From contig JAPPMG010000073.1 of the NCBI GenBank assembly GCA_028819215.1, forward strand, positions 1 to 64,000: 64,000 bases of DNA, written 5' to 3'. Numbering within the stretch: position 1 is the stretch's first letter; every line of letters begins with the position of its first letter. The position numbers and the translations under genes are program-made. Below, one piece after another: positions 1-44,780 of the stretch. The DNA comes from Bryobacterales bacterium (GTDB taxonomy: Bacteria > Acidobacteriota > Terriglobia > Bryobacterales > UBA6623). The notes under the pieces are model-generated. The model made no database searches, had not been told where the DNA came from, and saw only the letters and a program-made list of their open reading frames with translations.

Positions 1-228
1 CCAGTCAGAGCCCCTAAACCCGGCTATTTCCACTTAGCATGGCGAAGTAGGGTAAGGATCAGCGCGTGGCGGACGGCACAACGACGGGACCCTCAAGAAG
101 TCCAGCGCATGGACCCGCAGCCGGATACCTTTGCGGCGGCGTGTCCGTCATTGAAGAGTAGACATTGAAGGCGCTCCCGGCCAGTGCGGCTCTGGGCAGC
201 CGCCAGCGCTAGGAGAGATTTTGATTCT

Positions 229-2949
229 ATGGCTCGCATTGGATTGAAGCGCTTCGGAGGCGTGGCACTTGCTGCTGTGTTCATCACGGCATGGCCACTG
301 GCGAAAGCCGCCGGTCAAGACCAGGCGCAGACAGATCAGGAGGCGCCGGAGCCTCCAGCGGAGCCACAGGAAGACGCTACCGAACCTGCGCTGGACGGAC
401 AGTCGGCACCCGCTGAAGGGGGCGCCGCTGCCCAGCGCACCAACTTGAACCTACTCGGCCAGGAAGACACCCAGTCCGGCGAAGCGCGGCGCAACGAGAA
501 CGTCCAGTTCAATCTGGTCGACACCAATACCCTGCAGGAGCTCAACATCCGCCTAGGCGCGACTGCCACGATCGTCACGGACTTCCAGCCAAGCCGCGAC
601 TACTACGGCGCCGAATACGGTCGGCGTCCGCGACCGGGTCTGCACCTGCCGCCGGCGCGCGGGCAAGCCGTCCACGGCAACATCTTTTGGACCCACGGCA
701 ACAGCGCGTTTTCGGCCCGCTCGTTCTTCCAGGTCGGGGATGTCCAACCCGCGAACGAGAACCGCTACGGATTCCGCGTCGGGCTCCCGGCATGGAAGGG
801 GGCGCGGCTTACGATCAATGCATCGCAGCAAAAGATCCGGGGGCAGGTCAATGGCAACGTCCTAGTACCGCTGCCTAGCGAACGCACGCCCCTGCTCATC
901 GACCCGTCCAGCGGGGAACGCACTGACGATGCCACCCGCGAGATCGTCCAGCAGCTGCTAGAGGCCTACCCCACAGAGCTTCCGAACCGGACCGACATCG
1001 CACCCCGGGCACTCAACACGAACGCGCCCCAGCGAGTTGACACCGACTCGGCGAACCTGCGCCTTGACCAAGGCTTGGCCGACCACGGAAAGCTTGGCTT
1101 CAGCTACGTCTTCACATCGCAAAGCGTGGATGCGTTCCAGTTTGTGCGTGGTGCGAACCCCGATACCGAGATCAAGAACCACCGCCCCCGCGTGACGTGG
1201 ACAAAGGATTGGTCAGCACGGACTGTGACTGACCTTTCGGTTGGGTTTGATCGAATCGGTTCTCTGCTGATCCCCGAACCGAACAACTTCGGGCCGACAG
1301 TTGGTGTCGGCAGGGCGATCGACGGGCAGGGCCCTTCGCCGCTAATCCCAGTGGACCGGGCGCTGAACACGTTCCGGGGTGCCGGGCAGATCGCGCGGGA
1401 GTCTGGCAGACATAGCCTCAAGGCAGGGTTCCACCTCGGCCGCATTCAGCTCAATGGCGTGGAGCAGCAAGCGATTCGGGGCAACACCCAGTTCTCGGAC
1501 AATTTCGGCAACGACGCAATCACCAATTTCCGGCTGGGCAAGCCCACGCGCCTGCTCAAGACCGTGGGCAGCTTCCATCGCGGTTTCCGCCAGTGGGTCA
1601 GCCAGTTGTACGTGGCGGACACATGGAAGCCCGTGCCCGACCTGACCTTGAGCCTCGGCCTGCGCTACGAGCTGGTTACGCCGCCTCAAGAGGTAAACGA
1701 GTTTGAGACCCTGCCCTACGGCTGCGATTGCAACAACTTCGCGCCGCGTTTCGGCTTTGCCTATCGACTCGGCGACCGGATGGGCACTCTGCGCGGCGCC
1801 TATGGCATCTCCTACGGCGAAATCTATCCGGTCACATACAGTCAGTACCGCATCAATGCCCCCAACGTTGTGCGCCTCGTGGTGTTACGGCCAGAGCTGG
1901 TGGACATCATCAGCGGAGCGGCCTTTGCCAACGTGACCCCGGGATCCCGGTCGACTCTGTTCGACATCGCGGACAATCTGGTCGAACCCTACAGCCACCA
2001 GTACAGCCTGAGCTGGGAGGTCGGCCTGTCGCGGACCATGAACTTGCAACTGGGCTATGTCGGCAGCCGGACTCACAAAGTATTCCAAGCCTGGTTCCTC
2101 AATCGCGGGGAACGCCCGCCGGAGGTCCCGGTCACAGTGCGCACCACCAACGTCCGGCGGCCAGACTCCCGGTACAACGACGTGTTGCGCCTGCACAACG
2201 CCTCGCGGGCATATTTCGACGCGGCCCGCGCGGCCTTCGTGATGAGGAACCTGAAAGGATTCACGATCGACGCCGCGTACTGGTTCAGCAAGTCGATCGA
2301 CCTGGGCAGCGACTATACCAACACGATGAACGGCGGCGATGCCCGCCGGGCGGTCAGCCAGACCGCGAACAACATCCACTCAGACGTCAAGTCGCTGAGC
2401 TTCTTCGACCAGCCGCACGCCCTCCTGCTGCGAGCTGCCTACAAGTCCCCGGCCGGCCGGAACTGGGCCGGCCGCATCTTCGGGAACTGGGAAGTTTCGA
2501 CGGTGACACTGCTCAAGACGGGCACGCCGTTCACAGTCCAAACCGGATCGGACGGGCCGGGATTCGGGAACGTGGATGGTGCGATGGGCGATCGGCCGCA
2601 CCTACTCGACCAGTCGCTGCTGGGCCAAATCGTTGGCGACCCCGATACTTCGCGGCAGATCCTCTCCCGAGAGAAGTTTGCGTACCAAGCTGTCGGAGAC
2701 TTGGCCGGTGATCTGGGACTGCGCACTTTCCGCAAGGGCAAGATCGCTAACGTCAACGCCAGCCTCTCGCGCAGCTGGACGGTCAGCGGGGAGAATCGCC
2801 TCACTTTGAGAGCCGAGTCGGTCAACTTCTTCAACACACCCCAATTCGCCGACCCCACCACCAGCATGACGTCGCCCAGCTTCGGGCGCATCACCAACAC
2901 GCTCAACGACGGCCGCACCTTCCGGTTCACGCTGCAGCTCGATTTCTGA
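229..2949 (+). CDS. TonB-dependent-receptor-like outer membrane protein
   Basis: Predicted outer-membrane beta-barrel of 906 residues, distantly like the Oar-type TonB-dependent receptors of Acidobacteriota. The ATG at 229 is chosen over the upstream in-frame GTG at 184 because AGGAGAG lies at 211-217 and a clean signal peptide follows (residues 1-28). After the signal peptide comes a Pro/Glu/Ala-rich stretch (about 30-65). A plug-like segment and a long region of aromatic, alternating barrel strands follow, ending in the C-terminal Phe typical of barrel proteins. The usual N-terminal carboxypeptidase-regulatory domain is missing, unlike the receptor at 16713-19919. Substrate unknown. It stands alone, followed by a hairpin at 2987-3002. 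The family call rests on overall character rather than one decisive motif. Confidence 0.75.
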   Translation: MARIGLKRFGGVALAAVFITAWPLAKAAGQDQAQTDQEAPEPPAEPQEDATEPALDGQSAPAEGGAAAQRTNLNLLGQEDTQSGEARRNENVQFNLVDTNTLQELNIRLGATATIVTDFQPSRDYYGAEYGRRPRPGLHLPPARGQAVHGNIFWTHGNSAFSARSFFQVGDVQPANENRYGFRVGLPAWKGARLTINASQQKIRGQVNGNVLVPLPSERTPLLIDPSSGERTDDATREIVQQLLEAYPTELPNRTDIAPRALNTNAPQRVDTDSANLRLDQGLADHGKLGFSYVFTSQSVDAFQFVRGANPDTEIKNHRPRVTWTKDWSARTVTDLSVGFDRIGSLLIPEPNNFGPTVGVGRAIDGQGPSPLIPVDRALNTFRGAGQIARESGRHSLKAGFHLGRIQLNGVEQQAIRGNTQFSDNFGNDAITNFRLGKPTRLLKTVGSFHRGFRQWVSQLYVADTWKPVPDLTLSLGLRYELVTPPQEVNEFETLPYGCDCNNFAPRFGFAYRLGDRMGTLRGAYGISYGEIYPVTYSQYRINAPNVVRLVVLRPELVDIISGAAFANVTPGSRSTLFDIADNLVEPYSHQYSLSWEVGLSRTMNLQLGYVGSRTHKVFQAWFLNRGERPPEVPVTVRTTNVRRPDSRYNDVLRLHNASRAYFDAARAAFVMRNLKGFTIDAAYWFSKSIDLGSDYTNTMNGGDARRAVSQTANNIHSDVKSLSFFDQPHALLLRAAYKSPAGRNWAGRIFGNWEVSTVTLLKTGTPFTVQTGSDGPGFGNVDGAMGDRPHLLDQSLLGQIVGDPDTSRQILSREKFAYQAVGDLAGDLGLRTFRKGKIANVNASLSRSWTVSGENRLTLRAESVNFFNTPQFADPTTSMTSPSFGRITNTLNDGRTFRFTLQLDF

Positions 2950-20834: not shown

Positions 20835-22580
20835 CTATTCAGGCAGGGCGAAGACGAAGATGCTCGAGCCAGAAGGGAAGTGCTCGGCCTCCGGCCAGAG
20901 CTGCGTGGTAAGCCCGGCCAGCGCCGAGCCCCACCCGCTAGGAGTAGCGATGTATTGCCTTCCACCGACCGAGTAGGTGATCGCTGAGCCGCGATGGCCG
21001 GAGCCCGTACGAAAGCTCCACAGTTCGCTACCATCGCTGGCGTCGAGCGCGAAAAACCTGCCCGTGGCGTCGCCGCTGAATACCAGCCCCCCGGCGGTGG
21101 CTAACTGCGAAGCCAGTAGGGGGTACTTGTGCCGATACCGCCACTTGCGCTCTCCCGTGACCGGATCGTAGGCCGACAGGTGGGCATGCGCTTCACCGCT
21201 CTTCGGGTGGGCCATCTCAAACTCTCCACCAAAAAACGCGAGACCCTCCTGGGGATCCTCTTGCCTCACTGTCAGCGTCTGGCACCATTCCAGGCCGGTC
21301 GAATAAAACCAGCCTGTCTGGGGTGAGTAAGCGCCATGATTCCAACTCCGCCCGCCACCAATCGCGGGGCAGACGAAGCTGGTCTCGCCGACGGGCGGCT
21401 CGTTTCGCCCGATCAAGCGCCCCTGCTCGTCAATGCCTTCGATCCAGTTCGAACTCTCTACCAGCGGCCACGCTCCGAGAAACTCCCCGCTCTGGCGATC
21501 CAGAAGCCAGACATAGCCCGACTTCGAGGGATTGAGCATGGTCTTGCGCATCACGCCGTCCACTTCCAGGTCCAGCAGGACCATCTCGTAAGCCGTGTCG
21601 TAGTCCCACACGTCGTGCGGGATCTGCTGGTAGTGCCATTGGATTTTGCCGGTGTCCGGATCGAGCGCAACAACGGAATCCGTGTAGAGGTTGTCGCCTT
21701 CTCGGTCGCCGCCATAGAAGTCGGCAGCCGGGTTTCCCACCGCCCAATACAACAGATCCGATTCGGGATCGTAGGTGCCGGTCACCCAAGTCGAGCCACC
21801 ACCGTAGACCCAGGAGTCGCCCGCCCAAGTGTCGTGGCCGGGCTCCCCGGGCCCGGGAATTGTCCAGAACCGCCAACGGTGCCGCCCTGTGCGGGCGTCA
21901 AATGCGTTGATGTATCCGCGATGAGCCGAGTCGCCTCCGGTAACACCCGTGACGACCAAGTCCTTGACCACTAGGGGTGCAGCAGTGATGTTGCAGCCGC
22001 ACTGCTTGGAGTTCTCAACCTCGACGCGCCAGACTTCCTCCCCGGTCTCTCGGTCCAATGCGACCACATGGTTGTCCAACGTGCCCATGAAGACCAGCCC
22101 ATAGGCCACCGCCACGCCCCGGTTCCAAGTCCCGTAGATGCCTGGAATCTGATCGGGCTTGGGATAGTCGTAGCGCCAGATCTGCTCGCCGGTGGCAGCA
22201 TCGAGCGCAAAGACTCGATTCCAAGCGGTCGAGACGTACATGGTTCCGTCAACGACCAGCGGTGCAGCCTGCAATCCGCCGTCGGTCACGCCGCTCTCAA
22301 ATGCCCACACAGGCCGGAGCTGTTCGATGTTCGAGCGATTGATCTGATCCAACGGACTGTAGCGCCAGCTATCGTACGTGCCGTAATACGTCAACCAGTT
22401 CTCCGGCTCGTTGACTGCACCGTTCAGCCTCGCGGAATCGACATCCGCACCCATAGCCAACCCTGCGCCAAGCAGCAATACTGCCGCGTATCGGGTGACT
22501 CTCGGCTGGATCTTGGGGCGACGGCCGAACCGCACGGCCCAGCTGCGATCTTCCGCACCGTGCCCGGAGCGTGTCGTCAT
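20835..22580 (-). CDS. PQQ-dependent alcohol-type dehydrogenase with lanthanide-type DYD motif
   Basis: Periplasmic quinoprotein of 581 residues; a hydrophobic signal segment at about 28-46 follows an Arg-rich n-region. The eight-bladed propeller is evident from repeated A.D..TG...W motifs. The catalytic segment is PHDV-W325-D326-Y327-D328; D326 is the catalytic base. An Asp two residues after it (D328) is the feature that separates lanthanide enzymes (XoxF, ExaF/PedH) from the calcium MxaF type, which has Ala there. KQCGC carries a C-x-C pair where many relatives have a vicinal Cys disulfide. There is no fused cytochrome. The ATG at 22580 overlaps the stop of the cyclase gene (TGATG), so the two are coupled. 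Substrate alcohol unknown. Confidence 0.88.
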   Translation of the reverse strand: MTTRSGHGAEDRSWAVRFGRRPKIQPRVTRYAAVLLLGAGLAMGADVDSARLNGAVNEPENWLTYYGTYDSWRYSPLDQINRSNIEQLRPVWAFESGVTDGGLQAAPLVVDGTMYVSTAWNRVFALDAATGEQIWRYDYPKPDQIPGIYGTWNRGVAVAYGLVFMGTLDNHVVALDRETGEEVWRVEVENSKQCGCNITAAPLVVKDLVVTGVTGGDSAHRGYINAFDARTGRHRWRFWTIPGPGEPGHDTWAGDSWVYGGGSTWVTGTYDPESDLLYWAVGNPAADFYGGDREGDNLYTDSVVALDPDTGKIQWHYQQIPHDVWDYDTAYEMVLLDLEVDGVMRKTMLNPSKSGYVWLLDRQSGEFLGAWPLVESSNWIEGIDEQGRLIGRNEPPVGETSFVCPAIGGGRSWNHGAYSPQTGWFYSTGLEWCQTLTVRQEDPQEGLAFFGGEFEMAHPKSGEAHAHLSAYDPVTGERKWRYRHKYPLLASQLATAGGLVFSGDATGRFFALDASDGSELWSFRTGSGHRGSAITYSVGGRQYIATPSGWGSALAGLTTQLWPEAEHFPSGSSIFVFALPE

Positions 22581-23545
22581 CACTCGGACTCCCCTTCAGG
22601 CAACAGCGCGATCGCTCTGGTGGGCGCGCCCGACTGGTCGGCGACCTTCAAGGGCAAGGCGATATAGAACGCACCCCGCGCCGGCAGCTCACCAAGGTTG
22701 ATCAGTAGCTCTTCCCAGCTCATGCCCTGTTGCAGCCCGGCTAGGTGCGTGGGTTGGCCATCTTCGACGGGCCCCATCGAAGCGCCGTCAGTGCCAAGGT
22801 GCCATACGCCACGGTCGAAGAGATACATGACCGCCTCGGGAGTCGGCGCGGGCCATCCCGGAGCGGTCTTCAACACCACAGGATCCATGGTCATGCGGGC
22901 GCCTTCCGGAAAGGGCTTGTAGTACGCATCCGAGTACCCGCTGTGGAACAACACCACCTCGCCGGGTTCGATCGAGCCATGCTCGGACTCCCAATCTTGG
23001 ATGCGCTCCACCGTGATCGCTGCCGAGAATCCCGGCTCGGCCGCGTCGCGCAGATCTGTCACATCGATGACCACCGCCGGCCCCATCTGCCTGCTCAACG
23101 GGTACTTGTCGCCAGTGACGGCACCCATTGGGCCGGCATGTGGCAGGCCCGAATCCGGTGGCGGCACGAAATGCGCCGGGAAGTCTGTCTGCGTGCCAGT
23201 GTGCTCGTCCAAGACAAAGCGCTGGGAATAGTACGGCCCATTGCTGCCCGACGCTGGCGAGCCGTACGCGTTGGTGGGCTGCTCGAACCAGTTGTTCGTC
23301 CAGCGCGCGAAGGGCGGGTTGGAGCCCCAGTGCGCGGGCAATGTCTCCGCTAGCAACACAGTGAGGTCGACTACGCGCCGTGCCTGCCCGGTCAACTCGC
23401 CGGCAGCCCCGGCTTCGATCACGGCCCCATCGAAGCCGGAACCCACGCCAGCGGCAGGATCAGACCTACGCTCCTCCCCAGAGGTGCAGTGCAGGGTTAG
23501 CGAGAGCAGCGCAGAAGTTGCGCAAGCAGCAAGGGAAGGTCGCAT
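22580..23545 (-). CDS. Exported cyclase-family hydrolase (kynurenine-formamidase-like)
   Basis: 321 residues with a signal segment ending near Cys20 (a weak lipobox, LTLHC). It belongs to the cyclase/KynB-like metal hydrolases: VVDLTVLL at the start of the fold, then the metal motif H115-TGTQT-D121-FPA-H125. This is the family pattern H-x-G-T-H-x-D-x-P-x-H with Gln in place of the second His. FHSGY and WHLGTDGASMGPVE are further conserved blocks. It hydrolyses an amide or lactone. A strong AGGAG precedes the ATG at 23545. Its stop overlaps the start of the PQQ dehydrogenase, so the two probably act on one compound, for example opening the lactone made by an alcohol oxidation. Confidence 0.82.
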   Translation of the reverse strand: MRPSLAACATSALLSLTLHCTSGEERRSDPAAGVGSGFDGAVIEAGAAGELTGQARRVVDLTVLLAETLPAHWGSNPPFARWTNNWFEQPTNAYGSPASGSNGPYYSQRFVLDEHTGTQTDFPAHFVPPPDSGLPHAGPMGAVTGDKYPLSRQMGPAVVIDVTDLRDAAEPGFSAAITVERIQDWESEHGSIEPGEVVLFHSGYSDAYYKPFPEGARMTMDPVVLKTAPGWPAPTPEAVMYLFDRGVWHLGTDGASMGPVEDGQPTHLAGLQQGMSWEELLINLGELPARGAFYIALPLKVADQSGAPTRAIALLPEGESE

Positions 23546-23945: not shown

Positions 23946-26900
23946 ATGACACCAACAGGACCACAGGCAAGGTTGGGCATCGCCCTTGCCGGCACGATCG
24001 TTGTTGCCTGGAATTTGGGCTTGCTTCCTTCCAATGCGGCCGACGGTGCGCCGCCGTCGCTCGAAGCGTCGTTCGAGCAGACTGCCGCGCCATTCCTGAA
24101 ACAAAACTGCATCGCCTGCCATAACGAAAACACCGCCATGTCGGGCGTCCGTCTGGATCAGCTCGACGCCGCGCTCGAAGACCGGCATCTTCGGCTGTGG
24201 GAGGTCGTCAAGAAAAGGGTGGTCGACGAATCCATGCCTCCGCAGGGCGCCCCCCAGCCCACGGCGGCCGAGCGTCAGCGCATGGATGCCTGGATCGAGC
24301 ATGCTCTGGACATAGCGCGTTCAAGGCCCGTGCCAAAGAACGGTGTCGTGCGCCGACTCACGGTGACGCAGTACCGAAACACCCTGCGCGATCTGCTGCG
24401 GTTGCAAGACGACATCACCGACACGCTCCCGCCGGATGCGATCTCCAAGGACGGCTTTGTGAACAACACCGCCACCCTAGAGCTTTCCCCTCTGTTGATG
24501 GAGGCCTATCTGGAAATCGCTGACGAAGCACTGACACGCGCCATCGTTGATCCGGACGCGAAGCCATCGGTCCAGAACTTCCGGGTGGACCTAGGCGCCG
24601 GGATCAATCCCGAGCCGCTGGCGGACGAGCTGATCCTTGGCGCCAACAGCCTGCTGCTGGCCACGCCCGACTACGTGGTCAGCGAACCCACCCCGCGCAA
24701 GCCGTTCGCGTTCGAGCACAAGCGCATGCGTACGAGCTATCGCTTCAACGAAGGCTACCGGGGCAACGCAACGGTTCGCGGCTGGCGCGAATTCGACAGC
24801 ATCTACCACTCCGTGTTCGCTTGCATGCGCGGCAGCCGCGGCTACCCCAAGGGCCAGCCGTACAGCACCGTTCCTGAGGGCCTGCTGCTCCGTCCGGCGA
24901 TCCCCAACGATGAGCTGTTCCGCCTGGATGGCACCTACGGGCCGAAGGCGAACTTCAAGATTTCGCTGCGCGAACTACCTGACCACGGGCAGTTTCGTGT
25001 GACCGTAACCGCAGCGAAGTACGACGATGGCCTGCTGCTGGACCAAGACGACGAGGCCCAGGCTCGGGATCGCGGTGCGGGCGCGGTCAGTCTCGACCCG
25101 GGAAAGCACAGCGGCGTGGAGCTCGAGCGCGGGGGCATCTACCAAGTTGATGTATACGAGACGCCCAGAAGCGAGCCTCCCCCGCTGACAGACCTCTCCC
25201 GGCTGGCGGAGGGCCTCGCCGGAGCATGGACGCTGGACGGCGACGAATCGATCGAGCTAGGGGACAACGGGAGCTTCGTGGACTCCCCGTTCGGACGAGC
25301 GCTCTCGCTCGATGGAGAGGCCTATCAGCGCGGGGCGGTGGTCCGTCAGCATGAAGACCTCAACGTCGGCGCGGCCGACTTCACGGTGACGGCCTGGATT
25401 CGGCCCAAGCAGAGACACCGGGCAGGCATCGTCGCGCGCGGAGCCAGGCAGTACACGCACGGCTGGTTTTTCGAAATGTCGGACAACAGAGGGTCGCTGC
25501 GGCTGGAGACAACCGGTCCGAACAACGAAACCAATGGCGTGGTCACGTCCCCGCCCGGCGTGGTACGGGCCAAGGCTTGGCAGCATGTCGCTGCTGTCGT
25601 GCGGCGCGGCGCAGCCGAAACCAAGCTGTACGTGAATGGCTACGCCGTCGCACGGGGAATGATCGAGGCCGCAGATCTGGACAACCCCGAAATCGACCTC
25701 CATCTCGGCCAAGTCCCCCAACAGGGCCCGTTCCGCGGCCAGATCGACGAGGTGCGGTTGTATCGCAGGGCACTGTCCGAAGCGGAATTGCAAGCTTTGG
25801 TGCAACCCGGCAAGCGCTTCGTCAAGCCTCCCCCAGACCGCCCGCAGGAGGTGACGCTGACGCTGGGAAACCGGCAATTCTCGGGAACCTTGGCGCAGCC
25901 GGCATTCCTAGCGGTGCGGCTCGAGGCGGGCACGCTGCCGGTCGCCGCCCGCGGAACGGGAGTTAAGGACCTGAACCGGATTGTCCTGACGCCGCTTGAC
26001 GCCGACCACGCTGTCGCCAGAAGGTTCCAAGCGTTTGAGGGGCGCGTTCCGAGGCTCGGCGTCTACCTAGGGCTCCGCCGCGACTGTGGCAGCACGCTTG
26101 CTCCGGTTGGCCCGCCGCGGACCGTGCCGGGAACTGACCTGCAGCGCTACGTGTTCGAGGGCGCGATCCGAGACTTTCCCAGCCCTGACGTGGAGAAAGA
26201 CAACATCAATTACCTTGCCGGCATCCGCGAGATTGGCGTTCGCAGCGAGTACACCGATGGGCGTGATATGCCGCGCCTGCTAGTCCGCTCGGTGGAGTTC
26301 GAAGGCCCGTTCTACGAGCAATGGCCGCCGGAGTCGCACCGCAGCATCTTTGTGGACTTCGACCGCAAGGCCGACTCAGCAGCCTACGCTCGCCGCATAA
26401 TCTCCGCTTTCGCGAGTCGAGCCTACCGCCGCCCTGTCTCCCAGGCGGAGGTATCGGCGCTCCTGGCTGTGTACCAGTCCTCGCTGGAAGACTCGGGCAA
26501 GTTCCGCGAAAGCATCAAGGACGCGCTCCAAGTCACCCTGACGTCGCCGCAGTTCCTGTTCTTGGTCGAGCGCAGCGACACGCCAGAACCCGAGGAACTG
26601 GAAAGTCACGAACTCGCTTCGAAACTGTCGTACTTCCTGTGGAACGCCCCTCCCGACCGCGAACTCCTGAACCTAGCCGGCAACGGCGAGCTGCGCTCGC
26701 AGATCAGGAACCAGGTCGCGCGCATGGTCAATGACGAGCGCTTTTCGAAGTTCGTGGAGGAGTTTGCGTCGCAGTGGTTGAGCCTCGACAAGTTTGACGT
26801 GCTGGAACCCGACCGAGAGCGCTTCCCGAAACTCACGCGCGCCACGCGCGAGCAGCTTCGGCGCGAGCCGATCGAACTGCTCGGGCACCTGTTCCGCAAC

Positions 26901-27584
26901 AACCTTCCCGCCAAGCACCTGATCGTCTCTGACTACATCGTCGCGAACGAGGTCGTCGCCAGCTACTACGACCTAGGCGACCGCAGCGAGAGCGGCCTGG
27001 AGTTCGTGCCGATCATGCACGGCCGGCCCGAACTGGGAGGCTTGCTGGGTCAGGCCGCGATCATGGCCGGTCTCTCTGACGGGCGCGAGTCGAATCCGGT
27101 CAAGCGGGGGGCTTGGCTGGCCCGCAAGATCATCGCCGAGCCGCCCGACGATCCCCCGCCCAACGTGCCGGATCTCACCGAGAGCACCGAGGGCCTGCCC
27201 CTCCGCCAGCGGCTCGAGCAGCACCGCAGCCAGCCCGGCTGCATCCAGTGCCACCTCAAAATCGACCCGTGGGGCGTCGCGTTGGAGGAATTCGATGCCG
27301 GCGGGCGGCTCAAGCTGGAACCGGTGGACGCCCGCTCGATGTTGCCGGACAGCACCGAGGTATCTGGAATTGGCGACCTGAAACGATATCTGAGCGAGGA
27401 CCGCATCGACCAGGTCGCATTCAGCGTTCTCAAGCACCTGGTGACGTATGCCAATGGGCGCGATCTTGCCTACAATGAAGTAAGCTATCTCAAGCAAGAC
27501 GGGTTGAAGCTCAAGCAAGCCGGCTACAGGATGCAGGACATGCTCCGCTACGTAGTCACGAGCGAGCTCTTCCTGGAAAAGTAG
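23946..27584 (+). CDS. Planctomycete-type cytochrome protein, DUF1587/DUF1592/DUF1588/DUF1585 with LamG-like insert
   Basis: 1212 residues with a signal segment (about 8-32). Domain order is: c-type heme site C55-I-A-C-H59 (PSCyt-like), DUF1587 at about 128-200 ([14 protein letters not shown]), a concanavalin/LamG-like domain at about 418-620 ([10 protein letters not shown]..., [15 protein letters not shown]), DUF1595/1592 at about 810-1000, and DUF1588 to about 1110. DUF1588 contains a second CIQCH at about 1099. DUF1585 completes the C-terminus ([11 protein letters not shown]). This family is abundant in Planctomycetes and Acidobacteriota and is presumed to act in the periplasm on polysaccharides or other polymers with an electron-transfer step; its reaction is not established. 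The DUF1552 partner follows after 28 bases, so they form an operon. Confidence 0.9.
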
Positions 27585-27612: not shown

Positions 27613-28947
27613 ATGTCCCGCAAGATCGATCGACGAGCGTTCCTGTACGGAATCGGGGGCATCTCGCTGGCCCTGCCCGTCTTGGATGCCATGGGAGCCG
27701 AAGTGGCCGAGCAGATCCCGCGCCGCTTCTGCGCCCTGTATACGGCCAACGGCATGGCCCTGCCACGAACCGAAAACGGCATCGACGAATGGAGCTGGTT
27801 CCCGACTGCGGAGCGTGATGGCGAGTTTGTCTTCGGCCGCTCGACCGAGCCGCTGAGCGATTTTCGGCAGAAGCTGAGCTTCATGGGCGGCCTGTACCAT
27901 CCCAGCGGTCCCAAGGCTGACCCGCATACCTGCTCGGACATGTGGCTGACCGGCGCCCCGCTGCACAACCCCAAGCCGGGAACGTACAACACCGTCGCCC
28001 TCGACCAGGTAGTGGCGCAGCACACCAAGCAGCACTGCCGCCAGCCCTCGCTGGTGCTTTCCATCGACGCCGGCACGGGCTTTCTCTCGCGTACGGGGAC
28101 GATTTCCTACAACCTCGAGGGCCGGCCGATCCCGGCCGAGAACAACCCTCGCCGCGTCTTCAACCGCTTGTTCCGCGGTGACCGCGAATCCATGGAATCG
28201 GAGCGGGCACGCCTCCAGCGGCGCATCAAACTCGTCGATGCGGTCGCAGACAGCGCCCGATCGCTCGACCACCAGCTCGGGCAGTCCGACCGCCAGAAGA
28301 TGGATCAGTACCTGACCTCGCTGAACGAACTCGAGTCACGCATGATCGCGTCCGAGCGATGGATCGACATCCCTCTGAAGCGGCAGGACTACTCGCACTT
28401 GAACCTTGACGCTACTTCTGAGGGAGAGCCGGCCGATTTCTACCAGACGATGTTCGATCTGATCGCGCTGGCATTCGATGCAGACATCACCCGGTCGGTA
28501 GCGTTCATGCTCAATCGCGAGGACGGCATGGGGATCAGCGACTCGTTCCCCCTCAAACTCGGCCTATCGGCCACCCATCACAAGCTGTCGCACGCCACGG
28601 ACAAGGACGGCCAGTGGCACTTCGCGAAGTACGACCTGTTCCTCAGCCAGCAGCTCGCACATTTCTTCGACCGGATGGACAGCTATCGCGACCGCAACGG
28701 CTCAGTGCTGGACAACACAATCGTGCTGTACGGCAGCGGTGCGAGCACGACGCACACGTCACGCAACTTGCCGACGCTGCTGGTGGGCGGTGCCAACATG
28801 GGACTGAAGCACGGAACCTACTGGCGGGAAGGCGAGACGCGCATGTCGAACATGTACCTCAGCCTCCTGCACTCGATGGGGATCGGCGTGGAATCGTTCG
28901 CGGACAGCACCTCCACGCTGAGCGATTCGATCTTCAGCCGCGCCTAG
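27613..28947 (+). CDS. DUF1552 Tat-exported protein
   Basis: 444 residues. A Tat signal with R7-R8 ([13 protein letters not shown]) precedes a DUF1552 domain: [15 protein letters not shown] near the start, then [27 protein letters not shown], and a C-terminal [12 protein letters not shown]...[15 protein letters not shown] sequence ends 2 bases before the ATG. DUF1552 proteins almost always accompany the DUF1587/1592 cytochrome protein, as here (28-base gap). The fold resembles DUF1501, an alkaline-phosphatase/sulfatase-like superfamily member, but the activity is unknown. It is probably exported folded, with or without a metal cofactor. Confidence 0.92.
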
Positions 28948-29061: not shown

Positions 29062-30762
29062 CTATGCCAACTCGCCCTTGCGAACGGCTTCCAGCAGGTA
29101 GTCGCAGGCACGGGCTGTATTCGCCATCATGGTCAGGGTCGGATTGACCGATCCCAAGCTCGGGAAGGCCGCGCCATCGGTCACGAAGAGGTTCCTGATG
29201 TCGTGTGCCTGACAGTATTCATTGAGCACTGATGTGCGTGGGTCCCGCCCCATTCGGGCCGTGCCAACCTCGTGGATCCCGTCTCCGGGTGTCTTGGGCC
29301 GGCCGGACGTCTTGATGTCGATGGCCCCGGCGGCTTCGAGCATGGCAGCGCCTTGCTCGAGGCTGTCGCGGAACAGTGCGCGCTCGTTGTCGCTCCACTC
29401 CATGTGGATTCTCAAGACTGGGATGCCCCACGCGTCGACCACGCGGGGATCGAGTTCGACGAAATTGTTGTGGCTGGCCAGTCCCTCGCTGAAGGCATGC
29501 AGGCTTGCTTGCCAGTAGGCGTCTTCATGCACCGACCGCTTGAATGCCTCGCCAAATCCCTCAGCAGCCATTGCAAAGCGCGGCCCCGCTCCTCCCTGGT
29601 AGCTGAAGCCCCGGATCACGCCGTTGGTGTGCGTCTTCGTCACGTTGCAGAACCGCGGGACGAAGATCCCGTTGGGGCGCCGTGGCGGGCCGTGCCACGG
29701 CTTGGCTCGGCCTAACTGTGGCAGGCGCCCAGTGATCGTGGCACCGTACATGTGGTCCATGAGGTAGCGCCCCAGCGTGCCGCTGGAATTGGCCAGCCCG
29801 CCGGGCGCAGAGTTGAGGAGAATGCGGGTGGATTCGAGAGTGGACGCGCAAAGCAGCACCACCCTAGCGCGCACGTCGCGTACGCGCCGACGGGCCCGAT
29901 CGACATACGACACTCCCGAGCAGAGGCCCGTGGCGCGGTCCATCATGACGTGTGACACCACGGCGTCGGTGAGAAGGCTCAGCCTCCCGGTCCGCTTGGC
30001 GGCCGCCAAGGTGCTAAAGGGGCTGGAGAAATAGGAATACGTCTCGCAGCCGCGGTTGCACGGACCGCAGTAGTGGCAAGCCGCCCGCCCATTGTGTCGG
30101 GCTGTGAGGACCGCGGAGCGCCCGATTGTGACGGGACGCCCGAAACGCCTCTCGACAGCCTGCTTGAAGACGCGCTCACCACACGTGAAGTCCATCGGCG
30201 GCAGCAGCTCTTGGTCGGGGAAGTGCGCAAGCCCCTCGTTGCGGCCGCTGACGCCGATGAAGCGCTCGACCTTCGAATAGTACGGGGCGAGATCCTTGTA
30301 CGAGAAGGGCCAATCGGCACCGACGCCGTCGCGGCTGGCCGCCTTGAAATCCAGATCGCTGAGCCGGTAGCTCTGGCGGCCCCACGTCAGAGTCCTTCCC
30401 CCAAGAGCCCGCACGCGCACCCAGACAAAGGGCTTGTCCGCAGGGGTTGTGAACGGATTCTCGATGTCGTTGGCGAACCACTTGAAATTGACTTCCGAGC
30501 AAGCCCCTTGCTGCGCATGCATGGGCCGCAGGCGCGCAACCTCGGGCGAAGTGATGCCGTTCGGACGGGTGTCGCGATACTTCATCGCGTACGGCGGGAC
30601 GTGCTCGGCAAACTGGTCGGGCGTGGTTTCTGGACCAGCCTCCAGGAGCGCGACTGACAGACCGGCCTCGGTCAACTCCTTGGCCGCCCAGCCCCCTGTC
30701 GCGCCCGAGCCGACAATCAGTGCGTCAAAGATCTCTCGGCCGCCGTCCGCAAGCTGTGGCAT
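29062..30762 (-). CDS. GMC-family oxidoreductase (FAD)
   Basis: 566 residues. The N-terminal dinucleotide site is GSGATG at 18-23, followed by LLEAGP. A Cys-rich insert CHYCGPCNRGC with nearby YSYFSS appears at about 230-245; such inserts occur in the gluconate-dehydrogenase-like branch of the GMC family. The C-terminal substrate part has HEVGTARMG and VTDGAAFPSLGSVNPTLTMMA, the catalytic-histidine and Asn region. It oxidises an alcohol or sugar, passing electrons to a carrier. The ATG at 30762 starts 11 residues before the FAD fold; a longer frame to 30822 lacks support. No signal peptide is obvious, so it may be exported with a Tat partner or act inside. No small gluconate-dehydrogenase subunit 3 gene is adjacent. 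Confidence 0.88.
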   Translation of the reverse strand: MPQLADGGREIFDALIVGSGATGGWAAKELTEAGLSVALLEAGPETTPDQFAEHVPPYAMKYRDTRPNGITSPEVARLRPMHAQQGACSEVNFKWFANDIENPFTTPADKPFVWVRVRALGGRTLTWGRQSYRLSDLDFKAASRDGVGADWPFSYKDLAPYYSKVERFIGVSGRNEGLAHFPDQELLPPMDFTCGERVFKQAVERRFGRPVTIGRSAVLTARHNGRAACHYCGPCNRGCETYSYFSSPFSTLAAAKRTGRLSLLTDAVVSHVMMDRATGLCSGVSYVDRARRRVRDVRARVVLLCASTLESTRILLNSAPGGLANSSGTLGRYLMDHMYGATITGRLPQLGRAKPWHGPPRRPNGIFVPRFCNVTKTHTNGVIRGFSYQGGAGPRFAMAAEGFGEAFKRSVHEDAYWQASLHAFSEGLASHNNFVELDPRVVDAWGIPVLRIHMEWSDNERALFRDSLEQGAAMLEAAGAIDIKTSGRPKTPGDGIHEVGTARMGRDPRTSVLNEYCQAHDIRNLFVTDGAAFPSLGSVNPTLTMMANTARACDYLLEAVRKGELA

Positions 30763-31085
30763 GCAGAATTCCCGCGTGCAGAAAGCAGCGTCGTGCTGGC
30801 GCTTCGGAAAAACCGAGGCCACTGGCGCAGCCGGTGAGGCTCAGCAATCCTGCAATCGCGGAATCACAATCTTACTGCGCTTTGCCAAGGTCGGTTCAAG
30901 TCCAAGATCGTGCGGGTTTCATTCTCGGCCTGCCTCAGTGCAGATCTCCGGGTACTGGCCTAGACCGGCCAGGGCGAGTCGGGCGGATCCGGCAATCGAA
31001 GGAACGGCGGAAGGATCCATGCGAAACCTCGTGCTTCCCGCCATTGGTTCGACAGAGGCCCCAAGGTCGGTTACTCTGGAGCCGT
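30763..31085. other. Divergent intergenic region, nothing recognised
   Basis: About 320 bases between the GMC oxidoreductase and the small secreted protein. It must hold both promoters; TACTCT at about 31074 is a weak -10 candidate for the plus-strand gene. No RNA or repeat was recognised. Confidence 0.45.
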
Positions 31086-39400: not shown

Positions 39401-42400
39401 GTGATCGTGCGAGTTCCGGCCCCACTGCTGCACATTTTGCTCGCTGGCGTCGCCCTAAGCCCGCTGGCGGGGGCGACCGTGCAGTTCAACCGCGACATTC
39501 GCCCGATCCTGTCCGAGAATTGCTTTGCCTGCCATGGCCCTGACGCGGCCAAGCGCATGACATCGCTCCGCCTGGACAACGAACTGGGGGCGGCTACAGA
39601 GCTGAGCGGAGGGCGCAAGGCGATCGTGCCCGGCGATCCGGGCAGCAGCGAGTTGTTCCTGCGCGTGTCGGCTTCGGACCGGACTAGGCGCATGCCCCCG
39701 GCTGCCATGGGGCATGACCCGCTTACGGACCGCGAGATCGGCCTCCTGCGCCAGTGGATCGCCGAGGGTGCCCAGTGGCAGGGGCACTGGGCGTTTCTGC
39801 CGCCGCAACGGCCCGCCGTGCCTGCTGTAGAGCACCCCGGCTGGCCTGCCAATCCGGTGGACAGCTTCGTCCTGCGCCGCATGCGCGCCGAGGGCTTGGA
39901 GCCATCGGCACCGGCATCGAAGGAAGCTCTGATCCGCAGAGCGAGCCTAGACCTGACGGGCATGCCCCCGGAACTCGAAGACATTGACGCCTTCATGGCA
40001 GATAATTCTCCAGACGCCTACGAGACCGTTGTGGACCGGCTCCTAGGGTCGCCCCGCTACGCCGAACGGATGGCGATCCGCTGGCTCGACGCTGCGCGCT
40101 ACGCCGACACGAACGGTTACCAGACTGACGCCGAGCGCGACATGTGGCGGTGGCGCGACTGGGTTATCGAAGCGTTCGATTCCAACAAGCCATTCGACGA
40201 ATTCACCATCGAGCAGATCGCAGGCGACATGCTTCCCAACGCCCGCTTGGACCAAATCGTTGCCACTGGCTTCAATCGCAACCACCGGGGCAACGGCGAG
40301 GGCGGCATCGTCGACGCTGAGTACGCGGTGGAGTACGTAGTGGACCGCGTCGACACTACCTCGACCGTGTGGCTTGGACTGACGCTTGGCTGCGCTCGCT
40401 GCCACGACCACAAGTACGACCCGTTCACCCAGCGGGAGTACTACGAGCTGTTCGCCTATTTCAACAACGTGCCAGAGAAGGGGAAGGCGTTCAAGTACGG
40501 CAATTCCCCGCCCTTCGTCAAGGCCCCGACCAGCGAGCAGCAGGCCACCTTGGCCCGGATGGACGGAGATCTATCCGCCCTGCGCGCGGACCGAGACCGT
40601 CTCGAGGAGCGCCACGCGAGCGAACGACCGGAGTGGGAGCGCGACGTCGCGAGCAAGCCCACCGAGTGGATCGACGGGCGCGACCTCACTCTTGCTTTCC
40701 CCGAAGGCCATGACCTGCCGAAGCCGACCGAGCAGGCGTTTGAATCCGGCAGCTTCGCCGAACTGGGCGACAAGGCCAATTTCGGCTTTCGCGACCGCTT
40801 TAGCGTCACTGCTTGGATCCGACCGGAAGACCCGAACGGGACGATCGTTTCGAGGACCAAGCACGTACTGCCGGAAGATGATACGCAATCCAATCCTGGC
40901 TGGGGCTTCTACCTCAAGGACGGAAATCTGCAGGTCAATCTGGTCAACCGCTGGCTGGACGACTGCCTGCGTCTGGAAACGAAGCAGCCAGTCACGATCG
41001 GCAAGTGGCAGCAAGTGGGCTTCACCTATGACGGCACACGCCTGGCCTCGGGAGTCCGCATCTTCATCGATGGAGAGTCCGTCGATCTCAAGGTCATCCG
41101 CGATGAAATGAACCAAGAGATCCGCTCGAAGGAGCCCTTGCGCGTGGGCCGCGGCCTGGGGCTGGACTACCGGGGCAAACTGCGCCGCCTGCTGGTCTAC
41201 GGTCGCGCCTTGACCAGCGAAGAGATGCGCATGGCGTCTGAAGAGCGGAGCCTCGACGAGATCGCCGCTATCCCCGCGGCCGACCGCGCCCCGAACCAAT
41301 CCCTGAAGCTCGAGCACGCCTATCGCGAGGCGCTGGGCCCGGCCGATCTGACGGCACTGTCGGCACGGATCCGGCAATCGGAGCACGAGCGCGCTCACTA
41401 CTTCGACGCGGTGCCCACGGTGATGGTGATGCAAGAGGCGTCGCCCCGGCGCAAGACCTTCCGCCTGGACCGAGGGGCGTACGACGCACCGGCCGAGCAA
41501 GTGCAGCCGGGTCTGCCCGCGGCCCTGTCAAGCGTGGATCCGGGCGACAGGCTGGGCTTCGCCCGCTGGCTGGCCTCCCGCGACAATCCCCTGACAGCAC
41601 GCGTCACCGTCAACCGCGTCTGGCAGATGCTGTGGGGCGCTGGCATCGTAAAGACGGTCGAAGACTTCGGATCGCAAGGTGAATGGCCCACCCACCCCGA
41701 ATTGTTGGACTGGCTTGCGGTGGACTTCATGGAATCCGGCTGGGACATGAAGGCCCTAGTCAAGACGATCGTGATGAGCGCGGCCTACCGCCAGTCGTCC
41801 CGGCTGCGGCCAGGCGAGGACCGGTCGGATCCGGACAACCAGCTGCTGGCCCGCGGTCCTCGCCTACGCTTGCCCGCCGAGTCTGTACGAGACCTTAGCC
41901 TGGCCGTCTCCGGCCTCTTGGTCGAAGCGACGGGCGGCCCGTCGGTGCGTCCCTACCAGCCCGCGGGGCTGTGGACCGAGTTGGCCGGCGGCACCGACTA
42001 CGCCGTGGGGAGTGGAGCAGACCTGTACCGAAGGAGCTTGTACACCTTCTGGAAGCGAGCCGTGCCGCCGCCATCGATGATGCTCTTTGATTCCGCCGGG
42101 CGCGAAGCTTGCACGGTGCGCAGCGTGCGTACCAATACCCCCTTGCAGGCTCTGAACCGCATGAATGACGCCGCCTACATGGAGGCATCGAAGGCGCTCG
42201 CCGGCAGGGCGCTGCGCGAAGCAGGCGCCGGGCGTGACCAGCGCTTGGGCTACATGTTCCGCCTGGCGACCTCGCGGCGCCCCAACGAGCTGGAGACGCA
42301 GGTCCTGTCGTCAGGATTCAACCACCACCTGGATCGCTTCCGCAGCGATCCGAACGCGGCGACTGCATTGCTGGGCGACCGACCCAGGCACCCCGCCGAA

Positions 42401-42481
42401 GTCTCGCAACCCGAAGCCGCGGCATACACGATGATGGCCAGCTTGGTGCTGAACTTGGACGAGACGATCACGCGAGAGTAG
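39401..42481 (+). CDS. Planctomycete-type cytochrome protein, DUF1549/DUF1553 with LamG-like insert
   Basis: 1026 residues with a signal segment (1-26). A heme site C41-F-A-C-H45 lies in the PSCyt1 domain (QFNRDIRPILSENCFACHGPD). DUF1549 follows (about 145-350, NPVDSFVLRRM..EGL..., MAIRWLDAARYADTNGYQ), then a LamG/concanavalin-like domain (about 440-600: RFSVTAWIRPED, GKWQQVGFTYDG, RIFIDGESV). DUF1553 completes the protein (about 700-960: FARWLASRDNPLTARVTVNRVWQMLWG). The start is a GTG at 39401, five bases after a TATAAT. This family pairs with DUF1501; that partner follows after a cupin gene. Activity unproven; a role in polymer degradation with electron transfer is usually proposed. Confidence 0.92.
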   Translation: MIVRVPAPLLHILLAGVALSPLAGATVQFNRDIRPILSENCFACHGPDAAKRMTSLRLDNELGAATELSGGRKAIVPGDPGSSELFLRVSASDRTRRMPPAAMGHDPLTDREIGLLRQWIAEGAQWQGHWAFLPPQRPAVPAVEHPGWPANPVDSFVLRRMRAEGLEPSAPASKEALIRRASLDLTGMPPELEDIDAFMADNSPDAYETVVDRLLGSPRYAERMAIRWLDAARYADTNGYQTDAERDMWRWRDWVIEAFDSNKPFDEFTIEQIAGDMLPNARLDQIVATGFNRNHRGNGEGGIVDAEYAVEYVVDRVDTTSTVWLGLTLGCARCHDHKYDPFTQREYYELFAYFNNVPEKGKAFKYGNSPPFVKAPTSEQQATLARMDGDLSALRADRDRLEERHASERPEWERDVASKPTEWIDGRDLTLAFPEGHDLPKPTEQAFESGSFAELGDKANFGFRDRFSVTAWIRPEDPNGTIVSRTKHVLPEDDTQSNPGWGFYLKDGNLQVNLVNRWLDDCLRLETKQPVTIGKWQQVGFTYDGTRLASGVRIFIDGESVDLKVIRDEMNQEIRSKEPLRVGRGLGLDYRGKLRRLLVYGRALTSEEMRMASEERSLDEIAAIPAADRAPNQSLKLEHAYREALGPADLTALSARIRQSEHERAHYFDAVPTVMVMQEASPRRKTFRLDRGAYDAPAEQVQPGLPAALSSVDPGDRLGFARWLASRDNPLTARVTVNRVWQMLWGAGIVKTVEDFGSQGEWPTHPELLDWLAVDFMESGWDMKALVKTIVMSAAYRQSSRLRPGEDRSDPDNQLLARGPRLRLPAESVRDLSLAVSGLLVEATGGPSVRPYQPAGLWTELAGGTDYAVGSGADLYRRSLYTFWKRAVPPPSMMLFDSAGREACTVRSVRTNTPLQALNRMNDAAYMEASKALAGRALREAGAGRDQRLGYMFRLATSRRPNELETQVLSSGFNHHLDRFRSDPNAATALLGDRPRHPAEVSQPEAAAYTMMASLVLNLDETITRE

Positions 42482-43349: not shown

Positions 43350-44780
43350 ATGCCACAACCCTTTGCGGCATCCGCTCTCTGCACGCGACGCCACTTCTTC
43401 GGCAAGAGTGCATACGGATTGGGCATAGCCGCCCTCGGCAGCCTTCTGGGAGAGGAGCTGCCAGCCTCCGGACTGCCGGGGCTGCCCCACTTTGCACCCA
43501 AGGCAAAGCGGGTGGTCTACCTTTTCCAATCCGGCGCGCCGTCGCAGTTGGACATGTTCGACTATAAGCCGGGACTCGAAGCGCTCAGCGGCCAGGACCT
43601 GCCCTCATCGGTGCGCCAGGGACAGCGTCTGACTGCCATGACCGCCACGCAGTCGTCATTTCCGATAGCGCCATCGATCTTCGAGTTCCGCCAGCGCGGA
43701 CAAACCGGCGCTTGGATGAGCGATCTGCTGCCTCACACGGCCGAGATCGCCGATCGCCTGTGCGTGGTCAAGTCCATGCATACCGAGGCGATCAACCACG
43801 ATCCGGCCGTCACATTCTTCCAGACCGGAGCGCAACTGGCAGGCCGGCCTTCCATCGGCGCGTGGATCTCCTACGGGCTCGGCAGCGCGAACCGCGACCT
43901 TCCCGGCTTCGTCGTGATGGTCTCGTCAGGCTCGGGCCGCAACGGACAGCCGCTCTACGACCGGCTCTGGGGAAGCGGCTTCCTTCCGACCCGCTACCAA
44001 GGGGTCAAGTTCCGCTCGAACAGCGACCCCGTCCTCTATCTGTCTGACCCAGAGGGCATTGACCGCGACGGCCGACGGCGGTTCTTGGATGATCTGGGCC
44101 GGCTCAACCAGATCAAGTACGACGACTTCGGCGATCCCGAGATACTTACGCGCATCTCGCAGTACGAGATGGCATTTCGCATGCAGGCATCGGTGCCAGA
44201 GCTGACGGATATCTCGTCCGAGCCCGAATCCACCTTCGAACTCTATGGTCCCGATTCGCGCACTCCCGGCACCTATGCGGCGAACTGCCTGCTGGCGCGC
44301 CGGCTGCTGGAACGAGACGTGCGCTACGTGCAGCTGTTCCACCGCGGCTGGGACCAGCACACCGACCTGCCAGGCCAGATCCGGAGGCAGTGCAAGGACA
44401 CGGACCAGGCCTCGGCCGCGTTGGTCAAGGACCTAGACCGGCGCGGCTTGCTCAAGGACACGCTGGTCGTCTGGGGCGGCGAATTCGGCCGCACAGTGTA
44501 CAGCCAAGGCAAGCTCACGGCCGACAACTACGGGCGCGACCACCACCCGCGCTGCTTTACTATCTGGCTCGCCGGGGCGGGCATTCGACCGGGAGTGATT
44601 GGCGAAACCGACGACTTCAGCTACAACATCACCGAGGATCCCGTACACGTGCATGACCTCCACGCGACCGTCCTGCACCTGCTAGGGATCGACCATGAGA
44701 AGCTTACGTTCAAGTACCAAGGGCGCAATTTCCGCTTGACCGACGTTCACGGCAGGCTCGTCAAGAAGGCGATGGCATAG
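43350..44780 (+). CDS. DUF1501 Tat-exported protein
   Basis: 476 residues. A Tat signal with R13-R14 ([15 protein letters not shown]) leads into a DUF1501 domain: [74 protein letters not shown], and [11 protein letters not shown]..., [20 protein letters not shown]1501 belongs to the alkaline-phosphatase/sulfatase-like superfamily but lacks the formylglycine Cys motif. It forms the standard partnership with DUF1549/DUF1553 proteins. Expression probably starts at the TATAAT at 43326-43331. Confidence 0.93.

Follow-up and report, generated by a model that had tools for sequence, protein, structure and literature searches.

A D-x-D quinoprotein dehydrogenase with an altered metal site, encoded next to a cyclase-family hydrolase in a Bryobacterales genome without detectable PQQ synthesis genes

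In the window (the whole stretch of 64,000 nucleotides analysed), we found a gene for a PQQ-dependent dehydrogenase, hereafter P0001, that follows a cyclase-family hydrolase gene on the same strand and lies opposite a divergent pair of genes for a DUF1592 and a DUF1552 protein. The features are listed below with residue positions of P0001; the roles of its metal-site columns are assumed from work on XoxF.

20835..22580, minus strand: P0001, PQQ-dependent dehydrogenase of the methanol/ethanol family, 581 aa (TIGR03075, PF01011, AF2 model)
21522..21524, minus strand: K353, where XoxF and PedH have Arg (alignment)
21597..21608, minus strand: W325-D326-Y327-D328, with the catalytic base D326 and the +2 Asp D328 (alignment to structures)
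21732..21734, minus strand: N283, the conserved metal-site Asn (alignment)
21930..21938, minus strand: G215-G216-D217, with Asp in the metal-ligand Glu column of XoxF, PedH, and the Ca-type enzymes shown (alignment)
22580..23545, minus strand: cyclase-family (PF04199) hydrolase with the motif HTGTQTDFPAH (94.8 bits against PF04199, cut-off 23.1)
23946..27584, plus strand: divergent protein with PSCyt1, DUF1587, LamG-like, DUF1595, DUF1592, DUF1588, and DUF1585 domains and the motifs CIACH and CIQCH (domain search, motif reading)
27613..28947, plus strand: DUF1552 protein, encoded beside the DUF1592 gene (domain search)

The P0001 frame runs on the minus strand from an ATG at 22580 to a stop ending at 20835, and an alternative GTG start is located 3 bases upstream of the ATG, at 22583. 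The initial annotation gave this gene without a strand, and its residue numbering (W325-D328) agrees with ours. In a profile search, P0001 scored 537.4 bits against TIGR03075, above the curated cut-off of 480.05, and 421.9 bits against TIGR04528, under the curated cut-off of 650. The protein also matches Pfam PF01011 and has a quinoprotein propeller. Its hydrophobic N-terminus reads by eye as a signal peptide, and P0001 is probably secreted to the periplasm. No CxxCH haem motif was found in the P0001 sequence, such that an external electron acceptor would be needed. A search of the whole window against Rfam returned no match at the gathering score.

The AF2 model of P0001, built from 43 sequences, has a pLDDT of 87.4 and a pTM of 0.88. 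The top structural fit is PedH (6zcw; Z 54.1, 533 residues, 1.7 Å), which also heads the Foldseek ranking and is the top solved relative by sequence (phmmer 369 bits; 36–38% identity). The Ca-type ExaA (1flg) comes second (Z 52.2), and XoxF fits with Z 51.1 (6dam) and Z 50.6 (6oc5). Judged from this model, lanthanide and calcium enzymes are not separated by fold.

In the alignment check named in the initial annotation, WDYD of P0001 aligns on HDEWDYDGINE of XoxF (6dam) and HDGWDFDGVNE of PedH (6zcv). D328 thus stands in the lanthanide-Asp position, as had been claimed. Searches with PedH and XoxF segments placed a D in the same column of XoxF 6oc5, an S in ExaA 1flg, and an A in the methanol dehydrogenases 2ad6, 1g72, and 4tqo; the quinohaemoproteins 1kb0 and 1yiq have T. 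We take 2ad6, 1g72, 4tqo, and ExaA 1flg to be Ca enzymes. All four agree with the D-x-A/S/T rule reported for Ca-type PQQ dehydrogenases (PMC11996626). Furthermore, D326, D328, and N283 are invariant in all 43 rows of alignment A1, which has 30 invariant columns in all, so the presence of D328 is not due to chance.

The distribution of this residue was examined in a larger sample. A relative was encoded at 113 candidate loci in genome contigs, of which the best 80 were kept and 79 retrieved, and the paralogues from the window's own genome were added. The resulting alignment has 105 rows: 4 references and 101 others, the latter including P0001, its 7 orthologues (80–94% identity), and L022, which is not reliably aligned. 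Among the non-reference rows (best 80 of the 113 loci plus own paralogues), 100/101 have D at +2, across phyla; the exception is an own paralogue with T (L012). Within the own genome, this residue is present in 20 of the 21 quinoprotein genes (L022 left out). In E. coli Gcd, the columns of WDYD hold WDMD. Because the +2 Asp is family-wide, the motif by itself cannot show lanthanide use by P0001, and on the sequences compared it marks a broad family rather than this protein in particular. The initial annotation had read the +2 Asp as the mark of a rare-earth enzyme, a diagnosis left unsupported by a residue that is the family default and occurs in Gcd as well. In short, P0001 adds to the already known D-x-D quinoproteins a further member whose site is altered. 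The alignment of its D-x-D on those of XoxF and PedH suggests a lanthanide-capable site, and lanthanide use is possible and unproven.

In metagenome work, the D-x-D motif is being taken to point directly to lanthanide enzymes (PMC11996626). If it is merely a family default, metagenomic counts of lanthanide enzymes would be too high. The extension of lanthanide use proposed for this locus would not be novel for the phylum, as D-x-D enzymes of marine Acidobacteria (PMC11996626) and XoxF3 of soil Acidobacteria (PMC10875860) are already in print. The marine enzymes resemble those of the own genome in the motif, the many copies per genome, and the phylum; 3 marine Acidobacteria and 15 Pseudomonadales genomes are reported as unusually rich in D-x-D quinoproteins, with up to 70 in one genome of unstated group (PMC11996626). 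The main text of that study has 0 occurrences of "Bryobacter," and the group of P0001 is not named there.

For phylogenetic placement, a quick tree was inferred from 83 rows, with near-copies and fragments omitted and SH-aLRT support only. P0001 and its orthologues form their own branch within a 59-row group (support 94) that contains no reference, and they are thus separated from XoxF, PedH, and quinohaemoprotein ADH; the tree has several long branches and some open forks, and the single XoxF reference itself has a long branch arising from such a fork. The label "short-chain alcohol-type" given to P0001 in the initial annotation finds no support in this placement.

The rest of the metal site differs from that of the characterised enzymes. 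The metal-ligand column holds Asp in P0001 and its 7 orthologues but Glu in XoxF, PedH, the methanol dehydrogenases shown, ExaA, and quinohaemoprotein ADH; P0001 (D217) thus lacks the Glu ligand that is a trait of the lanthanide PQQ dehydrogenases XoxF and PedH. The vicinal Cys-Cys before the NRG motif, found in PedH, 6dam, and 1kb0, is missing, with IYGTWNRG instead of CC..NRG. In addition, the Arg of PedH and XoxF is replaced by Lys (K353), which is also found in quinohaemoprotein ADH 1kb0 and Gcd. R154, W265, and T199 presumably line the PQQ; the first two are kept as in XoxF and PedH, and T199 is as in XoxF, with S in PedH. Accordingly, PedH (the lanthanide alcohol dehydrogenase of Pseudomonas putida KT2440; 6zcv and 6zcw) is like P0001 in fold, D-x-D, and Asn but unlike it in the ligand, the Cys-Cys, and the Arg. 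The XoxF lanthanide methanol dehydrogenase (6dam, 6oc5) shares the same three traits with P0001 but differs in the Glu ligand and Arg of both structures, the Cys-Cys seen in 6dam, and its separate branch in the quick tree.

The combination of D217, N283, D326, D328, and K353 without Cys-Cys was found in 9/101 rows, namely P0001, the 7 orthologues, and a Chloroflexi bin (L104). Asp at 217 alone is commoner (26/101 rows), and four other own paralogues with N283 also have it. With the 7 orthologues dropped, the raw 2x2 table of Asp ligand against Cys-Cys loss (14, 2, 14, 44) gave a Fisher p of 6e-6. On the tree, an independent-pairs test gave a median p of 1, so the correlation is unproven and may reflect shared descent. 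In a Binatota bin (L051), two tandem quinoprotein genes (L051:4375-5970 and L051:6001-7671) each share 48% identity with P0001, and the second combines an Asp in the metal-ligand column with a retained Cys-Cys. The Binatota order Bin18 has been linked with sponges (PMC8262859).

These site residues bear on which metal P0001 would use, and two sub-cases may be considered. One is the view of the initial annotation, that P0001 is a strict lanthanide enzyme like PedH, XoxF, and ExaF, inactive without La-Sm and with an essential +2 Asp. The invariant D328 in the lanthanide-Asp column and the model nearest to PedH are consistent with this view, as is the reported strict lanthanide requirement of PedH, which carries an Asp in place of the Ser of PedE (PMC5487730). 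Against it are the family-wide presence of the +2 Asp, its occurrence in E. coli Gcd, an enzyme able to bind Ca, Mg, Zn, or Sr (PMC11996626), the Asp ligand, the Lys, and the missing Cys-Cys of P0001, and a genome that gave no match to TIGR03871; we regard strict dependence as possible and rather doubtful. The other sub-case, for which we hold a similarly tentative opinion, is that P0001 uses Ca or Mg or is promiscuous for metals in the manner of Gcd, with an ancestral +2 Asp that carries no lanthanide meaning. E. coli Gcd has a membrane anchor. It has WDMD and Lys in the P0001 columns and no vicinal Cys-Cys, and the +2 Asp of 100/101 sequences across phyla is also in favor of such metal use. 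The characterised membrane Gcd is described as a D-x-D enzyme that binds Ca, Mg, Zn, or Sr and for which facultative lanthanide use is only predicted (PMC11996626). However, Gcd is on a distant branch, beyond a starred split, its residue in the N283 column of the alignment is V, and the nearer MDH/ADH Ca-type enzymes shown have A, S, or T at +2.

For the neighbouring genes, the cyclase gene is located upstream of P0001 and its stop overlaps the dehydrogenase start (TGATG, within GTGATGA). The coupling to a cyclase gene proposed in the initial annotation is therefore supported by an overlap with a PF04199 gene. The sequence HTGTQTDFPAH agrees with H-x-G-T-[HQ]-x-D-x-P-x-H, which we take to be the motif rule of the cyclase family, and is also present at 6/7 orthologous loci. 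The TGATG overlap was found in 5/7 of these loci (L044, L045, L046, L048, and L050); L047 has the cyclase gene without overlap, giving 6/7 loci with a cyclase in all, and no cyclase match was found beside the orthologue in L049. The DUF1592 and DUF1552 genes are upstream of the orthologue in 7/7 loci, with DUF1552 partial at the locus edge in several. A GMC oxidoreductase gene (29062-30822, minus strand) adjoins the DUF1552 gene, and it is also present in L049 (77% identity over the part covered). The statement that this is not a xoxG/xoxJ neighbourhood may hold. TIGR03871, which we take to be the MoxJ/XoxJ family, had no match in the own genome (G000) at E 0.001, in a search in which 5 of the 14 control genomes had a match and none of these was over the cut-off.

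The divergent DUF1592 protein, with two CxxCH motifs that were read in the window copy only, is perhaps the electron partner of P0001, a candidacy suggested by its position. DUF1592 and DUF1552 were not found in 20 stretches (14.7–16 kb) around other own quinoprotein genes, an observation that speaks against such a partnership as a general rule. A cyclase match (tblastn E 1e-6, hits over 60 aa) was present in one of these 20 stretches (L129; 27% over 224 aa), not adjoining its dehydrogenase. Among the other retrieved loci (best 80 of 113, with flanks that vary in length), only L110 has both DUF1592 and DUF1552 near the dehydrogenase (E 1e-8).

The supply of the cofactor is another point to consider. 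The own genome (G000) is 5.86 Mb and 98.98% complete, and no match to PqqC was found in it or in the 10 other genomes of the genus (0/11), a sample in which G278 is 87% complete with 5% contamination and G280 is 91% complete with 7%. PqqC is over the cut-off in 3/81 genomes of the order and in 13/247 genomes of the phylum sample. PqqE and PqqB are over the cut-off in 0/4 genus genomes tested, including the single-contig genome G250, and in 3/3 PqqC-bearing genomes used as positive controls; weak matches under the cut-off were found in all seven. For PqqU, the 11 genus genomes gave at most 50 bits, within residues 12–217 of a 688-residue query covering most of the E. coli protein, in a search without a positive control that a diverged PqqU may have escaped. 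These patterns leave the source of the cofactor unexplained. In contrast to this absence, P0001 relatives are present in 11/11 genus genomes, with 24–32 matching stretches per genome. These totals include weak stretches and genes that were counted twice, and the quinoprotein genes of the own genome number about 20. In 10/11 genus genomes, including the own, a relative has at least 76% identity over most of the P0001 length, and G278 has one that is 78% identical over residues 19–299. The occurrence of about 20 such enzymes without detectable PQQ genes is an odder fact than the +2 Asp.

Scavenging of PQQ from the surroundings is the simplest reading of the missing synthesis genes. Many PQQ-using bacteria do not make PQQ, and within Acidobacteria PqqU is reported only from the class Vicinamibacteria, with other members possibly making PQQ or relying on diffusion (PMC12124388). 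If the enzymes are active, the genus would have to obtain PQQ from neighbouring organisms and would need a route to take it up. The orthologues come from Bryobacterales or Terriglobia, and Poribacteria bins carrying similar series names (RHO3, jk18x1bz, and others) are also found among the relatives. Since Poribacteria are sponge symbionts, these like-named bins make a sponge origin likely, and the genus is probably sponge-associated.

The missing synthesis genes also raise the alternative that P0001 is an "empty" quinoprotein that keeps the propeller and uses another cofactor or none. We presume that the name acido-empty-quinoprotein group A (TIGR04528) was chosen because the host genomes lack PQQ synthesis. 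The similarity of P0001 to this group is clear (422 bits), no clear PqqU was found, and 5 of the 10 paralogues tested (L005, L007, L008, L009, and L011) score higher on TIGR04528 than on TIGR03075. Yet P0001 is below the TIGR04528 cut-off and above that of TIGR03075, 0/10 paralogues reach 650, and the catalytic Asp, the Asn, and the putative PQQ-lining columns are kept. Together with the many PQQ users that are not PQQ makers (PMC12124388), these observations make an empty P0001 improbable.

Taken together, we consider P0001 to be, with fair probability, a periplasmic TIGR03075 dehydrogenase that works on scavenged PQQ, has a lanthanide-capable site, is coupled to the cyclase-family hydrolase, and perhaps passes electrons to the diheme protein. 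The enzyme would bind PQQ, most likely of extracellular origin, together with one metal coordinated by D217, N283, D326, and D328. D326 would deprotonate an alcohol, lactol, or sugar hydroxyl, the metal would polarise PQQ, and the hydride would pass to PQQ. Electrons would then move to a separate c-type cytochrome, for which the divergent diheme DUF1592 protein is perhaps suited. The probable task of the coupled hydrolase is to open a cyclic product such as a lactone, or else to process the substrate of the dehydrogenase itself. D328 would make the site able to hold a lanthanide, and the metal may be La/Ce, Ca, or either. Counted against this explanation are the missing PQQ genes, D217, K353, and the lost Cys-Cys compared with XoxF and PedH, the L049 locus without a cyclase, and the lack of DUF1592/DUF1552 in the stretches around the other own quinoprotein genes. 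A more far-reaching version, which we consider unlikely, is that the genus runs about 20 quinoproteins on PQQ it cannot make, taken up by a route other than PqqU, and that the conserved Asp-Asn-Asp-Asp plus Lys site without a vicinal disulphide gives P0001 a lanthanide selectivity unlike that of XoxF or PedH, with electrons passing to the DUF1592 diheme protein in a probably sponge-associated genus. With 20/21 quinoprotein genes carrying D-x-D, a changed ligand, and PQQ synthesis that went undetected, this lineage is well suited for testing the D-x-D rule.

Elsewhere in the window, two genes encode large outer-membrane barrel proteins (PF25183; 16713-19967, minus strand, and 184-2949, plus strand). 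The former has a carboxypeptidase-regulatory domain and is also found, with 97% identity, near the orthologues in L046 and L050. At 39401-42481 on the plus strand lies a gene for another planctomycete-type cytochrome protein (PSCyt1-DUF1549-DUF1553), which is followed by a DUF1501 gene (43350-44780, plus strand), an arrangement that parallels the DUF1592-DUF1552 pair.
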